Assembly (NCBI GenBank): GCA_900095095.1
Contig: FMBT01000300.1
Coordinates: 1 to 64,000 of the forward strand
Source of the DNA: Fragilariopsis cylindrus CCMP1102
Lineage: Eukaryota; Bacillariophyta; Bacillariophyceae; Bacillariales; Bacillariaceae
Reading direction: 5' to 3'
Length of the DNA: 64,000 nucleotides
The notes under the pieces were generated by a model that was not told the DNA's origin, did no database searches, and worked only from the letters and a program-made list of their open reading frames with translations. Position numbers and translations under genes: made by a program. Of this stretch, positions 1 to 10,838 are shown piece after piece. Within the stretch, counting starts at the first letter, position 1, and each line of letters starts with the position of its first letter.

Positions 1-84
1 ATAATTCTCATATATGAGAATTATTTTTTTTTAGATCGACGCTTCTTTTTTTTCAAATTGAAGCAATCTCACGTAGATTTCTAC
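1..84. repeat. Left palindromic terminal repeat of a possible DNA transposon
   Basis: The window opens with a near-perfect palindrome, ATAATTCTC-n6-GAGAATTAT (1-24), followed by a T-run. A second small palindrome, GTAGATTTCTAC, lies at 73-84. Read in reverse complement, 7655-7739 has the same two palindromes at the same spacing (the second at offset 74-85), so the pair behaves as an ~85-bp terminal inverted repeat. The element may begin left of the window, so no target-site duplication can be tested on this side. Confidence 0.5.
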
Positions 85-560
85 AGGACTTTCAGTACTA
101 CAGATCCAATTTATGACAATTTAAAGGGGGTAGTACACAAAATTTTCATTATTATGTGATTTTTTATGTGTCGTCTCCAAAATTTCCATCCAGGACGGAC
201 AAAAAGAAAAATCAGTTGACCAATGTTATAGTATCTCTTCCAGGTCTACTCAACAATAGGTCATGCCGATGCTAATGGGAAGAGAAATGGCGCTCAAAAG
301 CTGTTGTAATGGTGAAAATTCCATTACCGGAGTTATCGGTATGTTTGATATTGCACCTCTTTCCATCCTATCGCATCACATCACATCGTATCATCTCTAG
401 CACCGACGACGACAACGACAGTATGGTTTGAAGTAGTAGAAGAAGAAGAAGAAGAAGAAGAAGAAGACGTCGTAGACAAGGACAATAACTATCATCATCA
501 TCATTGGTATTTGAAAAAGAAAAAACAACAACAACGACGACAACAACGACGACAACAACG

Positions 561-3500
561 ATGGATGATTCGTACGATCCTACCTTCCTTACAGCCGATG
601 TTGATGTGGACTTTGACTTTCTTCGAGCACAGACTCAACATCAGGATGATACTAATGACTGTTGGGAAAGACAAGCAGAAGAAATAACAGATCCTAGTGA
701 TTTTCCTACTGCAACTGATTGGAAAGATGATGCACCAGATGTTATTTCTAATACAGTAGTAACATGCGATAAGGGCCGTATTCATATATGGAAACAAGGA
801 AAGACAGAAATCGGAATCATCCGTACTGCATTTGGAGAAGATCATCCTTCATTTGGTACACTTGCTACTAGAATATTCGGATCAAAAAGCAAGCTGTTTC
901 AATTGCTAGAATCAGAATTATCATTGTCATATGAAAAGTACTGCAGGTTTCTTGCCACTTTTTTTGCTGCATCAAGTAGAAGTTCGCCTGCCGCACGACT
1001 ACTAGAAGACGATCGATTTGATTCTACTGGTATGATGGAAAGGGGTGAATATCATAGAGTCATCAAGCAAATAGAGGAACACAGGAGTGGTGACGAATCA
1101 TTGTGGATGCAGATAGAAGAATTATTTAATTCACTTGCTAAGAAGCACTTTCTTTCAGAAAGAGGTGATGAAGAACTTTACATCGCATTGGATGACGACA
1201 AGCACCATTTCAATTATTCTAAACACGCTGATACATATGGTTTACAGAGAGCCCGGCACATTAAGACTAATAGAATGGGTCATATCGCACATACTGCAGG
1301 TTTAAGTGCAACAGGAATGCCTCTCTGTGTTATGTTTCAAAGAGAAGAGGAAACACAATCACAGGTGTATGAAAGGATGTGTAAGAGGATGTTTGGTGGT
1401 CGAACTGGCAATGGCAATCCTAGTCTACAAGGTAAGTGTTTTGATCTGTTGTATTCATATTTGTTATTCTGGTACGGGCGTGTTCATATTGTGATGGATT
1501 ATTAGAATGTTGTTTTGATTTGCTGCGACGTCACCCGAGGTGCTTGTTGTTAAGTCATTCGACGTCACTTGGTGGTGCTTGCTGTTAAGTCATTCGACGT
1601 CACGTGAGGTGCTTGTTGCTGTTGTTGTTTCTTTTCGCGTCGAGACGTCACTTGAGGTGCTTGTTGTTAAGTCATTCACTTGTTGCTTCGCTTGTTCTTG
1701 TTAAGTGCTTCGACGTCACTGGAGGTGCAGACGGGTTCCGTATGTTTTTCTTCACAATATATGGTGTTGTTAATGATTTTACAGATTTTCTTTACAACTT
1801 ACATTACAATTTTTTTTTTTAATCTAACAAAATATAGGAATAACTTTTGGTTCCGATCGAGGATACTGGACACCAACTCTTCTGTTTGTATTTCTTCTCA
1901 AATGTGGAGCTGATGTGATTGGTACTGTAGCTAGATGCTTCTGGTATCCCTTTACATTCACAAAAGGGAAGGTGACAGCAATACCAGAAGTTGACACACA
2001 CAATAGAATTGAAATTAGGATGAAAGGAGCAAAGGATGTATTCTACAAGACATTGAAATGGGGTACTGCTAAGATCCGAGCAACATGTTACAGAACCGGC
2101 ACCGGTACTGCTGTATCACTTGCAATGTCAACCCTTCATCATGGTCCTCTATTTGATTTGAATCTATCTTTCCCCAAGGATCACAAGTGGTATTTCAATC
2201 CAACTGTATTACAGGATGAAAGGAATGCAAAAGCATTCCCTGTTGTGGCTGGATCCGATCATTATGATATTATTAAATCACTGCCAATTCAACCTCTTAC
2301 TCTTGTACAAGGTGATACTGTGTGGTTCATCATGAGACAATTTTCTCTAACATCATCTACTGTTGATAAATGTATTTCTTCAAGATGTAGAGAGATAACA
2401 CAAGACCATGCTCTCCGTGATTCATATGAGACTGTTCTACATGCTGTTGATAGAATGAATCTATTACCAAGGATATCTGATTACAATGATGCAAGAAGAA
2501 ATAATAATAATAATAATAACACTACAAACCGGCGAGCAAGAGGAAGGACAGTATTAGATGATATTATTGGTGGTGACAGTGATAGTAGTGACGACGATGA
2601 AGAGGAATCACCGGCCATGGATTGGCCAGCAAATTGGATCCGTCGTGTTAATGATGGTGAAGATGGTCTATTCAGAGATAGACTCAACTCTGATAATATG
2701 GATGAAGCTGTTATTAGAGGAATCATTGATAAGCATGATAATGGAAAATCAACCAGTTCTATATCAATATTGAAGAAGAAACTGATTGAATGGTCGGAGT
2801 TGTCTTCCTATCGCCATAGAAAGTACTTCTTTTATAATGTTCAACAACTCAAGGATCGAATATTAGAATTGGATGGTCAAGCAGCAGTAACAGGAAAGAA
2901 CAAGATTGCTTTATTTGATCTTGTTGTGCGGTGTGATAGGAAAAGAGTTGGTCGTAATACAACTTTAAATAATAATCAAGATCCATATGATGATGATGAG
3001 GATGATGAGGATACTGTAGATCCTGTACTACTAGATATTTTTAAAGCATCGAAAATGAAGCCGTTAAAGGAAGAAGCCAAGGCGTATTGCAGACAAGGAC
3101 ACCTTCTAGAGCTTCCATTCTTGAAGCAGTTCCATCAGCACAGTATGGAAGGACTTACATGTGGTTACAAGTCAATTGCTATTCACGAAACACCTGTTGG
3201 TACGTTGCTTTGTTCTGATTTGATTTGATTTTTGATTCGATCCGATCCGACGCGAATTGTACTGTACTGTACTGTACTATATCGATTCGGATAGATTCGG
3301 ATCGTACCATAAACTGTACTGTACTCTACGATTCAATTCGATTCGGTACCGTACCGTACTGTACAGTACAGTTTATGGTACGATTCGATTCGATTTGATT
3401 TTTATTGGTCAAGAATGATTATGTAATTGTTCCTTGCCGAAAACCATTGGCCTGAAATGATAATGTAAATTTTCTTTACCGAAAATTACTGGTCAAGATT

Positions 3501-5449
3501 TATTATGTAAATGTTCTTTACCGAAAACCTTTGGTAAAAAATAATTATGTAAATGTTCTTTGCCGAAAACCTTTGGTCAAGAATCTTTATGTAAATTCTC
3601 TTTACCAAAAATTGTTTGTCAAGAATTATTATGTCAATGTTCTTTGACGTGACGAAAACCTTTGGCCAAGAATTGATTCGATTTGATTGATTCGATCTGA
3701 TTGATTTGATTTGATTTGATTGATTCGATTCAATTGTTTTCGCTCAGATTTAGTCCTTCCTTGTCTAATTTCGATCAGATTTGTCTGATTTCGCACTGAT
3801 TTAGTCCTTTCTTGTCTGGACCAGTCTTTTTCTGGACTGATTTAGTTGCGAATCTGTTTCGTATATCATATAATCTCACTCTTATCTATCTATTTATATA
3901 TATATATATATCAGTTGAATCGACATCAATTACAGGTGCACTGGATTCATCAGACGCTGAACTTATTTACAAGAAAGAAGATCATGCTGTTAATGATAGT
4001 GGTAGTGATACCGATGATGATGATGATGATATTGCTATTGAAACTATGCCAATCGAAATTAAAGCTCGCGTTGCTCATAGCACTTTCTATTCTGAAAGAC
4101 AACTGATTGAAGCTAATCTTGGATTAGCTGCCTTTGAGAGTGGAGAACCTTGGTATGTTGAAATTGATGCAGAGGGAGGAGAGCTTCACAAGTGGATCCC
4201 AAAGCACAAGGAAAGTTTTCAGCTGCTTCATCATGTTGCTGTTAGAGATTCAAGGAAGGGTCTCTTCCTTGTTGGGAACAAGACGAAATTGATGTTTGGT
4301 GTGTTTGTTACATACAGTGACAATCTTATTGCTTCCTACCGGGCTCTGTTGAAAGATCTTTTTGATCGAGCTCTGAAGCCCTTCTATGATGATAATATTC
4401 AACTACCACAAGCGAAGATTGAGAAGATTCTACAAGCAAAGGAAATGAAGAAACTTAACATGACCTATCATTCCTTTCAAACTGACTTCTATATTTGGAG
4501 GCAGTTGCGTATAAAGAAAGCATTACAGCTCCCAATTCCTCCTTGTAATCGGATCCTTCCTTACAATCATTCAGTTTGGAATAACTTGAAGGGTGCTTCC
4601 GATACAGCCACAAAGCTGATGTGGAACTGTCAGATCAAGTTTGCTTCTAGTGGACGGTCTCAAGTGGTTGCTTCTGCTAAATTCTTACAGTTGTATTCTA
4701 TTCTATTACATCGAGAATATCAAGTTTCTACTGCAAAGACAAACTTAAACGTTTATGCCTCTCTATATCATTTCCGGAACTCAAGAAATAAAAATTATCC
4801 CTTCCACAAGACAGTTGATACACTTTCTATTTGGTTTATCAAGCAAGCAGATGATGCTGTGGCTGCTGCTGCAGCTGCTGTACCTCCTACTCCTCCTACC
4901 ACAGCACTAACTATCGATACTACTGGAAGCAATGGTCCTCTCGTTCAAACACCTCCTCGTGTACAACGGAATAACAGAAGCTCTTTCCAAGAGATTAGAA
5001 ACTATACTACAGTCACCGGTGGTACTCCTTGTACTGGTAGAGCTAGAGATCCATTGAATAAAACAGCTGAATGGGAAGCAGATCAAGATCGTCTGAAAAA
5101 TTGTAATGGTACTCTATATAAGGATACCAAGAAAAGAAGTAAGTGCTGTATTTGTGGTGGCAATACAAACCATGTATGTATTGGATGTAAGCGACCTTAT
5201 TGCATGGTGAATCGAGATGAAAAGATATGCAGTATGATTTTAGGTGGTGATTCTAGAGTTGCATTTTTGGATGGGGAACGACCACCTAGTGAATTAGTAA
5301 TGAATGGTGTAGCGGCTGATGGAAGTACAAAAGAGTTTTGTACTGTTGAAAATGGATGCTTTCATATGTATCACCGGCAATCAATCTCACAAAGAGTTAA
5401 CAGCCTACCATCGCCAGCTCTAGTCAGTCCGGTGGCAGTAGAGGAATAA
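561..5449 (+). CDS. Large DDE-type transposase-like protein (piggyBac-like, tentative), three exons
   Basis: The model is exons 561-1431, 1838-3199 and 3936-5449, giving 1,248 residues. Both introns are phase 1. The start is the ATG at 561; the upstream in-frame run has no ATG. The sequence shows an acidic ALDDDKHHF stretch (near residue 211) and then GSDRGYWTP...GADVIGTVAR (D297). Spacing and context resemble the first two catalytic aspartates of piggyBac transposases (DDE_Tnp_1_7), where the second lies in a D-x-F/Y-T-S-x-x-L...G-T-V-R motif. A C-terminal Cys/His-rich segment (about 1147-1230: KCCICGG, CIGCKRPYC, CFHMYH) resembles the piggyBac Cys-rich tail. An acidic linker lies near residue 520. 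The protein is about twice the usual piggyBac length and the third catalytic Asp is not clear. It could be an autonomous transposase or a domesticated derivative. An alternative exon-3 acceptor at 3915 is also in frame. Confidence 0.5.
1526..1735. repeat. Diverged ~38-bp tandem repeat in intron 1
   Basis: Five copies of CGACGTCACnnGAGGTGC with the spacer TTGTTGTTAAGTCATT lie inside the first intron (1432-1837) of the transposase-like gene. Copies are imperfect and one carries extra TTG-rich sequence. The GACGTCAC core is a CRE-like octamer, but nothing shows that it is bound by a factor. Confidence 0.75.
3403..3670. repeat. 268-bp repeat, copy 1 (in intron 2)
   Basis: About six units of ~46 bp (GGTCAAGAATNATTATGTAA plus a TTCTTTACCGAAAACCTTT half) lie in the second intron of the transposase-like gene. 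The block is flanked by GATTCGATTCGATT-type runs and short palindromes built from GTACTGTAC. A second copy lies exactly 2,315 bp downstream at 5718-5985, with only a handful of differences. Confidence 0.85.
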
Positions 5450-6150
5450 ATTTATTCGTATTCGTATTTGTATTACTACTGCTATTTGTATTTGTATCTG
5501 TAGTATGTAAATAAATAAATGATAATAATAGTATTTATATTATAAACTTTATCTTTGTTATCACACTAGTATTAGATTTACGATTTGATTCCGATTTGAT
5601 TCGATCCGATTCGATCGATTCGATTCAGTACATCAATGTTTTGTTACCACTAGTATTAGATTTACGACTTGATTCCGATTTGATTCCGTTCCGATTCGAT
5701 TCGATTTGATTTGATATTTATTGGTCAAGAATGATTATGTAATTGTTCCTTGCCGAAAACCATTGGCCTGAAATGATAATGTAAATTTTCTTTACCGAAA
5801 ATTACTGGTCAAGAATTATTATGTAAATGTTCTTTACCGAAAACCTTTGGTAAAAAATAATTATGTAAATGTTCTTTGCCGAAAACCTTTGGTCAAGAAT
5901 CATTATGTAAATTCTCTTTAACAAAAATTGTTTGTCAAGAATTATTATGTCAATGTTCTTTGACATGACGAAAACCTTCGGTCAAGTTCGATGACTGTAG
6001 AAGAATAAACAACGTACATATGTTACGATTGTATTTGTATTTGTATTACTACTGCTATTTGTATTTGTATTTGTAGTATGTAAATAGTTAATAGTATTTG
6101 TATTATAAACGTTACTAGTATTAGATTTATGATTCGCTTCGATTCGATTC
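5442..6150. repeat. Duplicated 3' end of the transposase-like gene
   Basis: The stretch around the stop codon and 3' UTR (about 5442-5580: GTAGAGGAATAAA, a TATTACTACTGCTATTTGTA block, then CACTAGTATTAGATTTA) recurs at about 5996-6130. The second copy lies beyond the second 268-bp repeat. CACTAGTATTAGATTTACGA also occurs at about 5566 and 5647. This indicates a local tandem duplication covering the gene's 3' end and the spacer. Confidence 0.7.
5718..5985. repeat. 268-bp repeat, copy 2 (downstream of the gene)
   Basis: This is the downstream copy of the 3403-3670 block, equal in length and about 97% identical by eye. The same ~46-bp internal units can be seen. It lies between the transposase-like stop codon and the duplicated 3' UTR. 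Confidence 0.85.
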
Positions 6151-6187
6151 GATTCATTCAATACATCAATGCAATTCATTTTGATTT

Positions 6188-6556
6188 TCATTCCATCCAT
6201 GAATTAATCGTACCGATGATGGTGTTACTGTCTTCTAATGAAATTAAAAAAGTAAATACTTCATCAGCATGAAGAATAGAAGGGAATACAGTAGCTGTAG
6301 AAGATGTTGTAACAGTCATCTTTCCCATCTTGTGAGTGTCGTTTCTGCTCTTGATTGGTTTGAATCTGATGTTAACACCAACACCAGTAAGTGATATTAC
6401 TAATTCTGGGAAGGGGACTGATGGCCACTTAATATCATCATAAACTAGGAGCCTCTTCAAGGAGTTATCAATTGCAATACTACCATTAAATCCTAAACCA
6501 GGCCGACTAGATCTCTCCCACATCGGACACTGCATTCTAATTCGATTGTCGGTCAT
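6188..6556 (-). CDS. Unknown 122-residue protein, possible transposon passenger
   Basis: An intact single-exon frame starts at an ATG (complement of 6554-6556). The protein has no signal peptide, no membrane segment and no low-complexity tract. It has alternating hydrophobic stretches such as ELVISLTGVGVNIRF and VFTFLISLEDSNTIIGTI, which suggest beta-strands. I do not recognise a family. It is convergent with the transposase-like gene and divergent from the acidic protein at 6975, and it lies between the terminal repeats. It may therefore be a second gene of the same mobile element, which is inference. Confidence 0.45.
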   Translation of the reverse strand: MTDNRIRMQCPMWERSSRPGLGFNGSIAIDNSLKRLLVYDDIKWPSVPFPELVISLTGVGVNIRFKPIKSRNDTHKMGKMTVTTSSTATVFPSILHADEVFTFLISLEDSNTIIGTINSWME

Positions 6557-6677
6557 GGTGGTGGTACTTGTTTGTTTATTTATTTTTATGGTGTTGTTGT
6601 TGTTGTTGTTGTTGCTTTGTTTTGTTTATGATTTATGATTTATGGAAATAATAATAACAGTAATGGTAGTACAGCGA

Positions 6678-6888
6678 GTTGAGTTGCGTTGTGTCGACGC
6701 CAACTTTCTTTCTTAAGAGAAGACCAACTGAAGGAATTTTCACGAAGACAAATAATAATAATAATACAACGTGTGGAGTTGAGTAGAGTTTGAGTTGCGT
6801 TGTGTCGACACCAACTTTCTTAAGAGAAGAGCAACCGAAGGAAGGAATTTTCACGAAGACAAAACTCGTTGTATTATTATTATTACTA
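6678..6888. promoter_or_regulatory. Duplicated divergent promoter region
   Basis: A ~80-bp block (GAGTTGCGTTGTGTCGAC, CCAACTTTC, TTAAGAGAAGA, GGAATTTTCACGAAGACAAA) occurs twice in direct orientation, at about 6678-6760 and 6789-6865. The second copy is bracketed by ATAATAATACAACG and its inverse CGTTGTATTATTAT. The block fills the space between the divergent starts at 6556 and 6975, so it is a good candidate for a shared bidirectional promoter. The promoter role is inferred from position only. Confidence 0.5.
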
Positions 6889-6974
6889 TTATTATTATCT
6901 TCATAAATCATAAATCATAAACAATACAATACAATACAAGCACGACGACGTAAACAAAAGCAACAACAACAAAA

Positions 6975-7454
6975 ATGAAGACATCCTTTTCCGTAAATGT
7001 AACTGGTAGTATTACTATCAGTATTGAATCATCGAATGAAGATGGTGGTGGTGCTGCCGGCGATGTTGATGATGTTGGCAATATTCTTGTTGATATGCTT
7101 CTTAAATCATTAGTAAATGATGCCGTCAAGAAGTATGCCGGTGACAAGGGAACTCCTACGATTGAAAAAGAAGAACAAGATATCTCCAGTCCTCTTCCAC
7201 AACGTCGAGTTCCTTTAGATGCTGACGATGATACTGTTGATCCATACGCTTCGAATGATGCTGATGCTGATGATGATGCTAGTACTGTTGATCCAGACGC
7301 TTCGAATGACGATGACGATGACGATGGCGATGACAATGAAGATGAAGATCAGGTCAGTGATCTACTACCTAATGTCGAGATCGACAATGAGTATGAGGAA
7401 GACTACGAGCTCTCCCAGAAGATGGGCTTGATGAGTCTTCGTCGTCGCGACTAA
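6975..7454 (+). CDS. Unknown 159-residue acidic protein, possible transposon passenger
   Basis: The ATG follows an A/C-rich leader (ACAACAACAAAAATG). Residues 1-55 are ordered-looking (MKTSFSVNVTGSITISIE, then a hydrophobic helix NILVDMLLKSLVNDAVKKY). Residues about 75-140 are extremely Asp-rich, with two copies of an S/D-x-VDP-Y/D-ASND motif, and the tail ends SLRRRD. No family is recognised. It could act as a charged nuclear or chromatin-binding accessory factor of the surrounding element, but nothing in the sequence proves this. Confidence 0.5.
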   Translation: MKTSFSVNVTGSITISIESSNEDGGGAAGDVDDVGNILVDMLLKSLVNDAVKKYAGDKGTPTIEKEEQDISSPLPQRRVPLDADDDTVDPYASNDADADDDASTVDPDASNDDDDDDGDDNEDEDQVSDLLPNVEIDNEYEEDYELSQKMGLMSLRRRD

Positions 7455-7654
7455 GTGTTGACCACCATTGTCATTCTTAATGATAGTAATTTAATTATTC
7501 TAATCCATTGTCATTCTTAATAATAGTAATTTAATTATTCTAATCAAATTTACCTCATTTTAGTGACAACTTTATGTGTTCCTAGTTGTTTGTGCTGTTA
7601 CAGATGCATCGGCTTGTCATCCTCCAAAATGAATGAAATTTAAAAAAAAATCAC

Positions 7655-7839
7655 GTAGAATTCTACACAAACTTTGTACTAGAAATTCAAAAAATCTTGC
7701 GTTGTGAAGAAAAAAATAATTCTCAAATATGAGAATTATTTTTTTTCAAACATGGATAATTCTCAAATATGAGAATTAAAAATCATCATGGATATAGTCC
7801 TAATATATTTATATTAGTATGAAACTCAAATATGAGTTT
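7655..7839. repeat. Right palindromic terminal repeat plus extra hairpins
   Basis: 7655-7666 (GTAGAATTCTAC) and the palindrome at 7716-7739 (ATAATTCTC-n6-GAGAATTAT) mirror the left end. A second copy of the large palindrome lies at 7756-7779 and ends in TTAA, the piggyBac target sequence. A related hairpin (AAACTCAAATATGAGTTT) is at 7822-7839. The exact element end is therefore ambiguous between 7739 and 7779. Confidence 0.5.
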
Positions 7840-8164
7840 TATTTGAGTCGATTGAGTCGAGCGCAATTATATTGACAACTTCTTTCTAATTACCGGGCTG
7901 AAGTTACAAATCCGTTATCAATTAAGCCTAAGTGCGCACTAATTCGCTCACCTTATCAGCGAGGAATGAAAAAGTGCGAGGCGCATATCATCGCTCAACT
8001 TTTGTTTCAGATTTTTGTGCGAGGACGTTCAATTCGCAAATTGATCGAACTTCAAAATATCTCTCACAACTTGCACAACTTGTTGACAGGGGGCGTCATC
8101 ACTACTTTCTTTTCCTTTACCTTACTTTATCTTCTTATAGTATCATACCATCGAATCGAATATA
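7840..8164. other. Intergenic leader of the 8165 gene
   Basis: The stretch is AT-rich with no convincing coding frame, only short overlapping frames. No promoter motif could be assigned. Confidence 0.4.
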
Positions 8165-9244
8165 ATGAATGTCTTCAAGAAACTAGTTGTGGCGAACAGG
8201 AGGAATCGTTCCACTTCTGTCGTTAGCGATGATGGTAACAACACAGATGAGGATAACAACTTTTGTTATCACCAGCATGACGATGGCGACGGAACGGGAA
8301 AGATCGTTGGTGAGAATAGTGGTTCTTCGTCCCTGTCGCTTTCATCCCTATACGGACGTCGCTCTTTACCTCCTCCGACTGTGGTTACTTGTTCCAAGTT
8401 TGACAGTGATGAAGCCTTTGCGATTGTCGCCAGAGCTATGGTGTATAGATACGAACACGATGACTTGACCGAACGGGAGGCGATTGAAGCAACTCTTGGT
8501 ATGATGGACGATAAGCGTGCCTTTATAGAGGCGATGGACTTGAAATTCACTACTCTAGTTAGCGATGATTATATCTCATCTCAGCAGGACGGTAGTGATG
8601 CTATTTCAGAAATCATTATTCAAACTCGATCTATTTTTGATAGCACGCTCAAATCAATGTGGAGAGAAATGGATAGTGACGAATCAACGAGTGTCGACGA
8701 TGAAACTTTGGTTGAACAAAGAGATGATGATGATATGGTCGGTTTTGAACGGTACGCGAAGCAACCAAAAACTCCAAAGAATCTACGTATGTCACCTATC
8801 CAAAGCTCGTATAACTACAAAAGCCAAGGGGAAGATATGCCTCAAAGCACTACTTGTTCTGGTGGAAATCAACCATTCAAACGTCAACGTCGATGGTTTT
8901 TTGCTGAAACAGAAAAACATTCTTCAGTTACTCCACCATCTATTGGTAGTGAGGAGACCGAATGCGGGAAACTCTTTTCGAATCCATTCTCGGTGAAAAA
9001 ATCCCTTCCAAAATTTCATTTCGACTTTGGTGGTATCAACAGCAATTCATGCAAAAGTAAGTTCTTTCTAATGGGAGGAGGAGGAAGAGTGTCTCATCAA
9101 CCCGTACAATCGTTGCAGCTTGATGAGTATTCATATATGGGTGGAGAAAGAGCATCATCGTATCTGCCTCCGACGAGCCCCATTCGGAAAGTATCGGAAA
9201 CATATAGCTCAGCAACTGACACGGGGAAGTTTATCATCGATTAA
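8165..9244 (+). CDS. Unknown 359-residue host protein with an FxIxA...FIEA domain
   Basis: This is a single-exon frame from ATG to TAA. The N-terminus is basic then acidic/Ser-rich. A predicted helical segment runs from about residue 80 to 165, including FAIVARAMVYRYEHDD and KRAFIEAMDLKF. The rest is polar and probably disordered. I do not recognise a named family. The segment resembles one in exon 1 of the neighbouring minus-strand gene (FHIIAKLLVDRFEEHL ... QSFIEAVRYRLKEC). The two may therefore be distant paralogues or share an undescribed lineage-specific domain. The gene is convergent with the PLAC8-like gene (375-bp gap). Confidence 0.65.
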   Translation: MNVFKKLVVANRRNRSTSVVSDDGNNTDEDNNFCYHQHDDGDGTGKIVGENSGSSSLSLSSLYGRRSLPPPTVVTCSKFDSDEAFAIVARAMVYRYEHDDLTEREAIEATLGMMDDKRAFIEAMDLKFTTLVSDDYISSQQDGSDAISEIIIQTRSIFDSTLKSMWREMDSDESTSVDDETLVEQRDDDDMVGFERYAKQPKTPKNLRMSPIQSSYNYKSQGEDMPQSTTCSGGNQPFKRQRRWFFAETEKHSSVTPPSIGSEETECGKLFSNPFSVKKSLPKFHFDFGGINSNSCKSKFFLMGGGGRVSHQPVQSLQLDEYSYMGGERASSYLPPTSPIRKVSETYSSATDTGKFIID

Positions 9245-9619
9245 AGGGTTATTGATCGAGAATCAGTTGCGGAATTAATGAATGCTACAAGAAGTAACAC
9301 AAATAATAATGCGATAGTACAGCAATTGAGTTTAAAATATGAGATAGATGGCTCTTATCTTACTATTTTCTGTAGACTTAAATTAGTTTAATATTGTACT
9401 GCACAAAATTTCATAACGAAATAGATAAAATAAAAAATTATAAATCAATTAACATACACAAAAAATTAACAATAGTTATAAATTCTGTAGATAAATATAT
9501 ATAAATGGATATTAACATAACAATTTTCATTCTATACTACGGTCGAAGCGAAAACAATTTTCTGAAAAGAGAACATATACAGTACATCCTTTTTACGCTA
9601 CGGCATTCCTTTTTCACGT
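9245..9619. other. AT-rich convergent spacer
   Basis: This spacer lies between the 3' ends of two convergent genes. It is AT-rich (runs such as ATAAAATAAAAAATTATAAAT) and holds no frame, and probably carries both 3' UTRs. Confidence 0.5.
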
Positions 9620-10838
9620 TCATGGTCCTTGGTGCTCGACGAATCCAGTAGCATTGCACCAAACGCCTCCATAGTGTTCATACGAAGTCGTATGTCTCCC
9701 CATCTGTGCTATGGTAAGAGGGAAAAGTATAATAGACTTTATAGTTTCGTTTCGGCTGCCTAATCTTCCAGTAGGAATTTGGTATCTTTCCATTAGACTA
9801 TCTCGTGTATTGATGGTGGCTTTGATAGTGAAGGCTATCATGGAGGCATTAACGAGGATAATCGAAAGGAAATCCGCAGCTGAAACCGTCACATAGCTGT
9901 GGAGTTTGAACTCGAGCCCGGAAACAATAGTTAGATTTAGACCAGCCCAAAAGCACAGGATACTTATTGCCATACCACGGGGGGACCATAATCCATCCTG
10001 TGGAGTATTTTCGATGGGTTTCCTTCCAGTTATATCCAAACCAACTCTCTCCATTACTTGCGCTAAGGCAAGGAGCGGGCAAAGGAAAGAAAGAAGGAGC
10101 ATAGGGTGACGAAAACCATATTTAAAACAATCAAATGGTCGGTCTCTCCATCTACCAACAGGAATACCCTCGTCATTTGTTACTTTCATATAGCAATAGA
10201 AAGTTTGCCCCTTTCGTATACCACCATTTGGTACAGTTGCAAGGAAGCGCTTGTCGTTTATTTCAGCTTCAAACTGATAGCCTCCTGGTAGATCGGAGGG
10301 GGCAACAACGTCAACAATCGGCAGTTCATTTTCTGAACTACTGTGCCCAGGCGGTAACGTATCTTTTCCGTTGTTATTTTCAACATCAGTGTCAAATGAT
10401 GAAATTACTTCAAGTTGTTTATCTTGGGTGGGAGGGACATATCCAATGTTCTGCCACAAACCAGATAAAACCGTTTCGCTGGCCTTCAAACTTTCTGTGG
10501 TGACGTTGGTTGTATCGAGGTTAGTAACGTTGGTTGGTCTGATTCCTTTTCCATGAAGCGCACGTAACTTTCCCTGGAGTTCTGCGACCTGATTCCTCCA
10601 AAATTGTGACGCCTCTGCTGTTACCGACTCTGACATAAGATTTGAGGCTTCTTGAAGCTCTGTGGTTAGTTGCTGTCGAGCTAACTCATCTGGGGTGTTT
10701 GGTTGTGCATTTTGAATAGCTACATTGTTCACCTTAAAAGTTCTTCTTGATGCCGATTTCGATTCTCTCATTTTCTGCAACACAAAAAGCGAATTGATAC
10801 AACACAAAACAATACAATAAATGAGTTCACGAAGTTGT

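Follow-up and report, generated by a model that had tools for sequence, protein, structure and literature searches.

How can a transposase and the end sequences on which it acts change their specificity together, when a change in either alone should block movement? This question is raised by a three-gene region at the start of contig FMBT01000300.1 (C80) of the diatom Fragilariopsis cylindrus CCMP1102 (assembly GCA_900095095.1), the first 64,000 nucleotides of which were analysed and are referred to here as the window. The region is likely a DNA transposon of the cut-and-paste kind, about 7.8 kb long, which inserts into and duplicates ATAT, works in a piggyBac-like manner and belongs to a family carrying matched zinc-finger and palindrome cassettes on mosaic backbones. 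The question becomes testable because three zinc-finger/palindrome sets occur in this one genome, on backbones that are almost interchangeable. At the level of sequence, the element, its tips, its ATAT target, purifying selection, the covariation within the palindromes and the agreement of zinc-finger with palindrome type among the available copies are established. The study covers one genome (67.9 Mb searched), in which the silicon transporter family, as befits a diatom, has 27 matches above a cut-off passed in none of 14 control genomes. Few copies were available, some with frames broken, perhaps in part through assembly error; searches for ends and genes scored the best candidates only, and copy and match counts are lower bounds.

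An initial annotation had proposed a mobile element with passenger genes and, judged by its copies, the region is a real DNA transposon, with ends that differ from those first suggested. At least 23 left-end and at least 24 right-end matches were found in the genome, the query place and fragments included, and full or near-full relatives lie on contigs C72, C742, C240 and C375. Four element copies on C72 stand in a 10.4-kb tandem array (C72:167877-206674), counted as one insertion that was later duplicated because its three inner spacers are 99% identical. The copies with matching ends, an exact insert-free counterpart of one insertion and the joint occurrence of the genes bear out the proposal of a mobile element. 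A single domesticated host gene cluster is ruled out by the copies, tips and counterpart sites.

The right boundary had been placed at a TTAA (7776-7779), which turns out to be internal. The true right tip, absent from that proposal, is ATCATCATGGATAT at 7782-7795, and the element ends at 7795, with these terminal features:

7778 to 7791, minus strand: right terminal inverted repeat, CCATGATGATTTTT reading inwards
7792 to 7795: ATAT, right copy of the duplicated target, from flank and counterpart comparisons

Copies start with ATATCCATAATGATTTTT and finish with AAAATCACCATGGATAT, or near variants of these, and the tips begin CCAT directly after ATAT. The tip pattern TATCCATNNTGATTTTT occurs at 36 places in the 67.9 Mb and its reversed control at none; the preceding base is A in 33 of the 36. 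Because the contig begins at window base 1, the left tip of this copy lies outside it, with about 46 bp missing as estimated from the copies on C742 and C72. The flanks of six insertions, four full (C742, C72, C375 and C240) and two of miniature inverted-repeat transposable elements (MITEs; C674 and C253), were fused around a single ATAT and searched against the genome, 40 of 265 candidates being scored. For the C253 site, a counterpart without the insert and with a single ATAT lies on C360 and is identical at 62 of 62 positions. Counterparts at 89-90% span the junction for the C72, C240 and C375 sites, the first of these matches being qualified by a C72 flank that is itself repetitive; for C742 and C674, only the sites themselves were among the matches listed from the 40 candidates scored. 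The right flank of the window element resumes from 7792/7801 on C572 and C180, both without the element, at 97.4-97.7% over an AT-rich stretch. Given the tips, the preceding A and the counterpart sites, the target is therefore ATAT, and ATAT also takes the place of TTAA as the flanking sequence. Terminal inverted repeats, target duplication and non-autonomous relatives are all present, as in cut-and-paste elements.

Paired palindromes near the ends, the feature that had first marked the locus, are present at 1-24 and 7716-7739, with inner ones at 73-84 and 7655-7666. The subterminal features are:

1 to 24: left subterminal palindrome of type AATTCTCA...TGAGAATT, from repeat search and copy comparison
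71 to 101, plus strand: inner subterminal motif with GTAGATTTCTAC, a direct-orientation repeat of that near the right end, with a similar motif in other copies
7653 to 7684, plus strand: inner subterminal motif of the right end, GTAGAATTCTAC, read from the sequence
7716 to 7739: right palindrome R1, centred 68.5 bp in from the tip
7756 to 7778: right palindrome R2, centred 28.5 bp in from the tip, absent from the first proposal

Perfect arms measure 12 bp in the palindrome at 1-24 and 16 bp in that at 7716-7739, and the inner 12-bp palindromes or near-palindromes lie 66-67 bp inward of the outer ones, centre to centre. The first 12 kb hold three sites with arms of at least 10, including a TA repeat, whereas 20 resampled sequences averaged 0.05. 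Across the whole 64-kb window there are four sites with perfect arms of at least 10 and a loop of at most 4, namely the two end palindromes and two simple repeats; the palindrome at 7756-7778 falls slightly under this threshold. Among copies, the palindrome centres on the right are 28.5-29.5 and 58.5-68.5 bp distant from the tip and those on the left 48.5-58.5 bp, the between-copy differences approximating one helical turn.

The palindromes fall into types: AATTCTCA in the window, GAAACTCA in C72, C742, C640 and C343, and GAAAACYG in C240, C375 and C524. Each of the five full copies has one palindrome type at both its left and its right end. The exact window-type palindrome occurs at three places in the genome, all within the window element, and the second type at 14, 12 in the ends of elements and two in a relic on C180/C572. 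This relic, a left end of the second type, also lies in the window at 7819-7867, 24 bp beyond the right tip of the element; its positions on the element-free contigs are C180:33229-33248 and C572:63758-63777. On C108 (L039), a right end on the minus strand from 7492 has the half-site AAATCTC...GAGATTT, which suggests that further recognition types exist.

Within 14 distinct palindromes from copy and MITE ends, 96.4% of 140 cells are paired, a figure that describes the better-kept sites because decayed or mixed palindromes (C674, C253 left and outer right, C46/C88, C108 inner), outer right palindromes in shifted register (C240, C375, C524) and the C180/C572 relic were omitted. Seven of ten stem pairs show compensatory changes, on both sides. 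The covariation score of 0.580 was reached by none of 500 shuffles, with slid controls at 0.02-0.20. Near-perfect palindromes with compensatory changes would also be expected if the sites were kept as DNA hairpins or cruciforms, for example for replication or end shielding, and the zinc-finger diversity described below were unrelated; such forms have been proposed for the subterminal repeats of piggyBac-like elements (PMC12324416). This explanation is highly improbable, as it leaves unexplained why one half-site type stands at both ends of a full copy and why that type tracks the zinc finger. By analogy with piggyBac and piggyBat, whose CRD dimers bind palindromic subterminal sites (PMC7351741, PMC11707139), the palindromes are better read as putative dimer-binding sites than as hairpins.

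The candidate reader of these sites is encoded by the largest gene. Its 1,248-residue, intron-bearing frame was correctly predicted, as the three spliced exons are separated by GT-AG introns:

561 to 1431, plus strand: transposase exon 1, residues 1-290 and the first base of 291
1432 to 1837, plus strand: intron 1, GT-AG
1838 to 3199, plus strand: transposase exon 2, from frame and copy alignment
3200 to 3935, plus strand: intron 2, GT-AG, containing one copy of a 290-bp minisatellite block
3936 to 5449, plus strand: transposase exon 3, from frame and copy alignment
5129 to 5248, plus strand: zinc-finger (CRD) core, a type-specific cassette, residues 1143-1182

All four splice sites are kept in seven of eight aligned copies, the second acceptor of C742 being GG rather than AG. 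Exons align between copies, while introns vary in length and content. Five between-insertion comparisons (1,211-1,246 codons) gave ratios of nonsynonymous to synonymous divergence (dN/dS) of 0.20-0.26, at dS 0.29-0.35 and dN 0.06-0.09, and by these rates the transposase is under purifying selection. Three comparisons within the C72 array (dN/dS 0.63-0.75 at dS 0.004-0.075) are not relied on because their frames carry shifts. Three aspartates, each located by eye, form a DDD-like triad that may be the catalytic core. The candidates are LDDDKHHF (residues 211-213, exon 1), GSDRGYWTP (residue 297, 1855-1857, exon 2) and KGASDTATK (residue 967, 4601-4603, exon 3), spaced 83-85 residues from first to second and about 670 from second to third. 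A PD-(D/E)XK (YqaJ-like) nuclease at residues ~690-890 was considered because of motifs picked out by eye; a Pfam search with this piece was empty and the domain is not claimed.

The zinc-finger core has the pattern CxxC...CxxC...C. Cores of different types differ at 16 to 19 of 40 residues (ungapped), and the stretch directly after the core, DSRVAFL.GERPPSELV, is almost invariant among copies. One core is common to C72, C742 and C640, a second is found in C375 and C240, and a third in the window. Zinc-finger type matches palindrome type in six of six insertions; with 60 possible label arrangements, chance alone would therefore give this once in 60, relatedness ignored.

Because relatedness was the main worry for this agreement, five copies (window, C742, C72_2, C375 and C240) were compared along 227 overlapping windows of 100 shared columns. 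Pairs of the same palindrome type were most alike in 16 of these, 12 of which lie inside 4982-5448, and the excess likeness of same-type pairs peaks at 0.251 at 5147-5254 (mean 0.004, standard deviation 0.059). If there were simply three subfamilies, in which zinc finger and palindromes diverged together by shared descent and without functional matching, the backbone should show the same groups. The small number of copies, and the likeness of C375 and C240 in some other stretches too, would suit such a history. The backbone contradicts it: C72 and C375, which differ in palindrome type, have 97.6% identity over exon 1 but 69.5% over the zinc-finger core, whereas for C742 and C72, which have a common palindrome type, identity is 99.2% over the core but 92.4% for the part of exon 3 preceding it, 87.9% for exon 2 and 90.1% for exon 1. 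Gene 2 groups C742 with C375 (92.2%) and C72 with the window (91.8%). Moreover, core dS is 0.9-1.3 between types and 0.05 for C742-C72 (40 codons only), compared with about 0.3 for the whole protein. Shared descent alone is thus improbable. It is as if the zinc-finger cassette predated its present backbones and recombination had shifted it among them, and the pattern suggests that copies exchange matched protein and site cassettes, so switching the DNA sites they recognise.

Mosaics and an apparent link of this kind might also arise from assembly chimeras or ordinary gene conversion. The C72 array copies differ in frameshifts within their transposase frames despite 99% identical spacers, which suggests some assembly errors. 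The same core nevertheless occurs on the separate contigs C72, C742 and C640, each time with the same palindrome type, and an artefactual or conversion origin can be given very little credence.

Under the favoured explanation of matched cassettes on mosaic backbones, the DDD catalytic core of a multi-exon transposase would act on short tips starting with CC, while a C-terminal zinc-finger dimer would bind palindromes lying inward of the tips, a single one at the left end and two at the right. Within the family, zinc-finger cassettes would vary from copy to copy, and each would have its matching palindrome at both ends. Recombination would split backbone from recognition modules, and selection for mobility would leave the matched combinations. 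Dimer binding of the piggyBac kind would account for the palindromic form of the sites, the joint variation of their halves, the agreement between the two ends of a full copy and the way the sites follow the zinc finger. By the same analogy the zinc finger presumably binds the palindromes, and the matched sets are probably maintained by selection.

Several observations weigh against this explanation. Only six independent insertions hold both informative parts; in C375 and C240 the zinc-finger frames are broken, and the reading of C640 covered its right end and zinc finger only. The link between zinc finger and palindrome was first noticed and then tested on the same copies. The scan has a weaker second peak in gene 3 (7039-7210), which DNA binding does not explain and which C640 seemingly does not fit. 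Two of the five covariation measures were weak: the seven pairs changed on both sides compare with 4.9 in shuffled sets (reached by 8 of 500), and nine further pair types with a shuffled mean of 9.1 (reached by 384 of 500). The MITEs on C253 and C674, both fully read, keep no single palindrome type, their palindromes being mixed or decayed, and for this reason confidence in the explanation was lowered slightly. The counterpart of the C240 site (C293:42971-43090) reads ATTTTTGAT where a single ATAT is expected, with five extra bases at the junction, possibly an excision scar or a divergent target. The counterparts that bear on excision are the exact one (C253/C360) and this one (C240/C293), either of which may or may not be an excision. 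Structure predictions of exon 3 and of the zinc finger were unusable (predicted local distance difference test scores of 28 and 35). Finally, neither DDE_Tnp_1_7 (PF13843) nor any other Pfam transposase model matched the whole protein or five pieces of it, at expect-value (E) cut-offs of 5 and 10; with piggyBac and piggyBat, the best profile alignment covers 26 zinc-finger columns at 42% identity (E 0.03, probability 1.7%).

The last two results bear on the suggestion in the initial annotation that the large protein is a piggyBac-like DDE transposase. The 1,248 residues stand, and a candidate DDD-like triad was assigned by eye; piggyBac membership is not established, given the ATAT target and the missing profile match. 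A second alignment with piggyBac and piggyBat covers 63 columns of acidic stretches (E 0.3). The whole protein had no match among PDB sequences, and an exon 3 profile gave five chance-level hits (best E 0.2). The search for homologues outside this genome comprised viral contigs, prokaryote genomes and the PDB, with no eukaryote genome collection; none of 37 pattern matches to exon 3 in viral contigs and none of 56 in prokaryote genomes was confirmed.

In anatomy the element resembles piggyBac (Trichoplusia ni) and piggyBat (Myotis lucifugus) in its DDD-type triad, here assigned by eye, its C-terminal zinc finger, palindromic subterminal sites unequally arranged at the two ends, a 4-bp palindromic target and tips starting with CC. 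It differs in targeting ATAT where theirs is TTAA, in a protein of 1,248 residues against 594 and 578 (PDB entries), in its second-to-third aspartate gap of about 670 residues, two introns, two passenger genes and lack of a profile match, and in the three matched zinc-finger/palindrome types within one genome. Its tips read CCAT; the piggyBac rule is one of CCYT tips and TTAA (PMC5601938), and CCCAT is among the tips reported from animals (PMC10813416). Some piggyBac-like elements of animals have targets other than TTAA, such as TATG, and so show that targets differ among piggyBac relatives; these elements have coding lengths of 1,737-1,929 bp, and ATAT is not among the targets in the available portion of that report (PMC10813416). 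Because of the absent profile and PDB matches and the differing target and second aspartate gap, the element is not filed in piggyBac. It is instead described as piggyBac-like in mechanism, its anatomy being a good lead that falls short of establishing membership.

The same differences could mean that the element belongs to a separate DDE superfamily that converged with piggyBac on a palindromic 4-bp target and a zinc finger, an origin compatible with matched cassettes. Such an origin would fit the ATAT target, the failure of PF13843 at element loci although the model has 53 matches in this genome, and the ~670 residues between second and third aspartate compared with 98-113 in piggyBac clades (PMC10813416). 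The first gap of 83-85, in contrast, is within the 78-85 of those clades (PMC10813416), YN...KGASDT resembles the YNQTKGGVDT of piggyBac when compared by eye, the tips start with CC, and the best local alignment is between the two zinc fingers. Separate ancestry is accordingly a minority view, though one with some weight. Several of the 53 PF13843 matches fall in frames of 781-938 residues, recognisable piggyBac-like genes in the same genome.

Other transposons are less close. Kolobok, reported from a diatom, and KolobokP are DDD/E elements that carry accessory proteins and use a 4-bp target, and resemble the element in this; Kolobok is defined by TTAA and 5'-RR tips, where the element has ATAT and 5'-CC tips, and KolobokP differs in its long terminal direct repeats and homing endonuclease (PMC9587614). 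Teratorn, of the piggyBac superfamily, likewise carries extra genes, but it is a 180-kb fusion with a herpesvirus and obeys the CCYT and TTAA rule (PMC5601938). In the open-licence literature, no report was found of co-switching between zinc finger and palindrome or of a piggyBac-like element with an ATAT target.

If kinship with piggyBac is real, this group of elements would gain ATAT as a further target, and laboratory work might draw on the sets as orthogonal transposase/end pairs. A bolder and rather doubtful proposal is that the element represents a separate diatom DDE lineage with an ATAT target, a transposase of more than 1,200 residues and a portable recognition set, a 40-residue cassette and end palindromes that are exchanged together. 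If so, an element could leave one recognition group, along with its MITE parasites, and join or found another.

The two small genes that had been predicted beside the transposase are present as open frames, and the right part of the element contains:

5697 to 5986, plus strand: second copy of the minisatellite block, 290 bp in 42-bp units, 97% identical to 3381-3670
6188 to 6556, minus strand: passenger gene 2, 122 residues, without Pfam match, kept in copies
6612 to 6934: inverted repeat between the divergently oriented passenger genes, arms 6612-6671 and 6875-6934, 85% complementary
6975 to 7454, plus strand: passenger gene 3, 159 residues, acidic, without Pfam match above chance, kept in copies

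In the window the 290-bp block lies in intron 2 and the 3' region; C72, C742 and C375 have it in intron 1, again with a copy in the 3' region. Against the window copy, and with alignments below 60 residues excluded, dN/dS is 0.22-0.52 for gene 2 (eight alignments) and 0.26-0.62 for gene 3 (12 alignments, three with a stop), or 0.22-0.57 for the stop-free alignments of both combined. By these ratios the genes of the element were under selection while the family spread, and genes 2 and 3 may help mobility. That the three genes always travel together holds in part: all six insertions with exon 3 (window, C72, C742, C240, C375 and C640) carry both small genes, some of the three genes being broken, such as gene 2 in C375, while C90 and C47 have both small genes without an exon 3 match among the best candidates. 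In C640, exon 3 and both small genes were found and the other exons were not read; gene 3 or its remnants also occur on C524, C307 and C108.

The MITE family consists of five inward-facing tip pairs 216-219 bp apart, which account for 10 of the 36 tip places and share the tips of the element (C253, C354, C367, C648 and C674). The right palindrome of the C253 MITE is of a further type, AAAACCAC...GTGGTTTT, and those of C674 are mixed. On C90 (L040), an element fragment adjoins a Copia-like reverse transcriptase frame at 6371-9993, named by eye.

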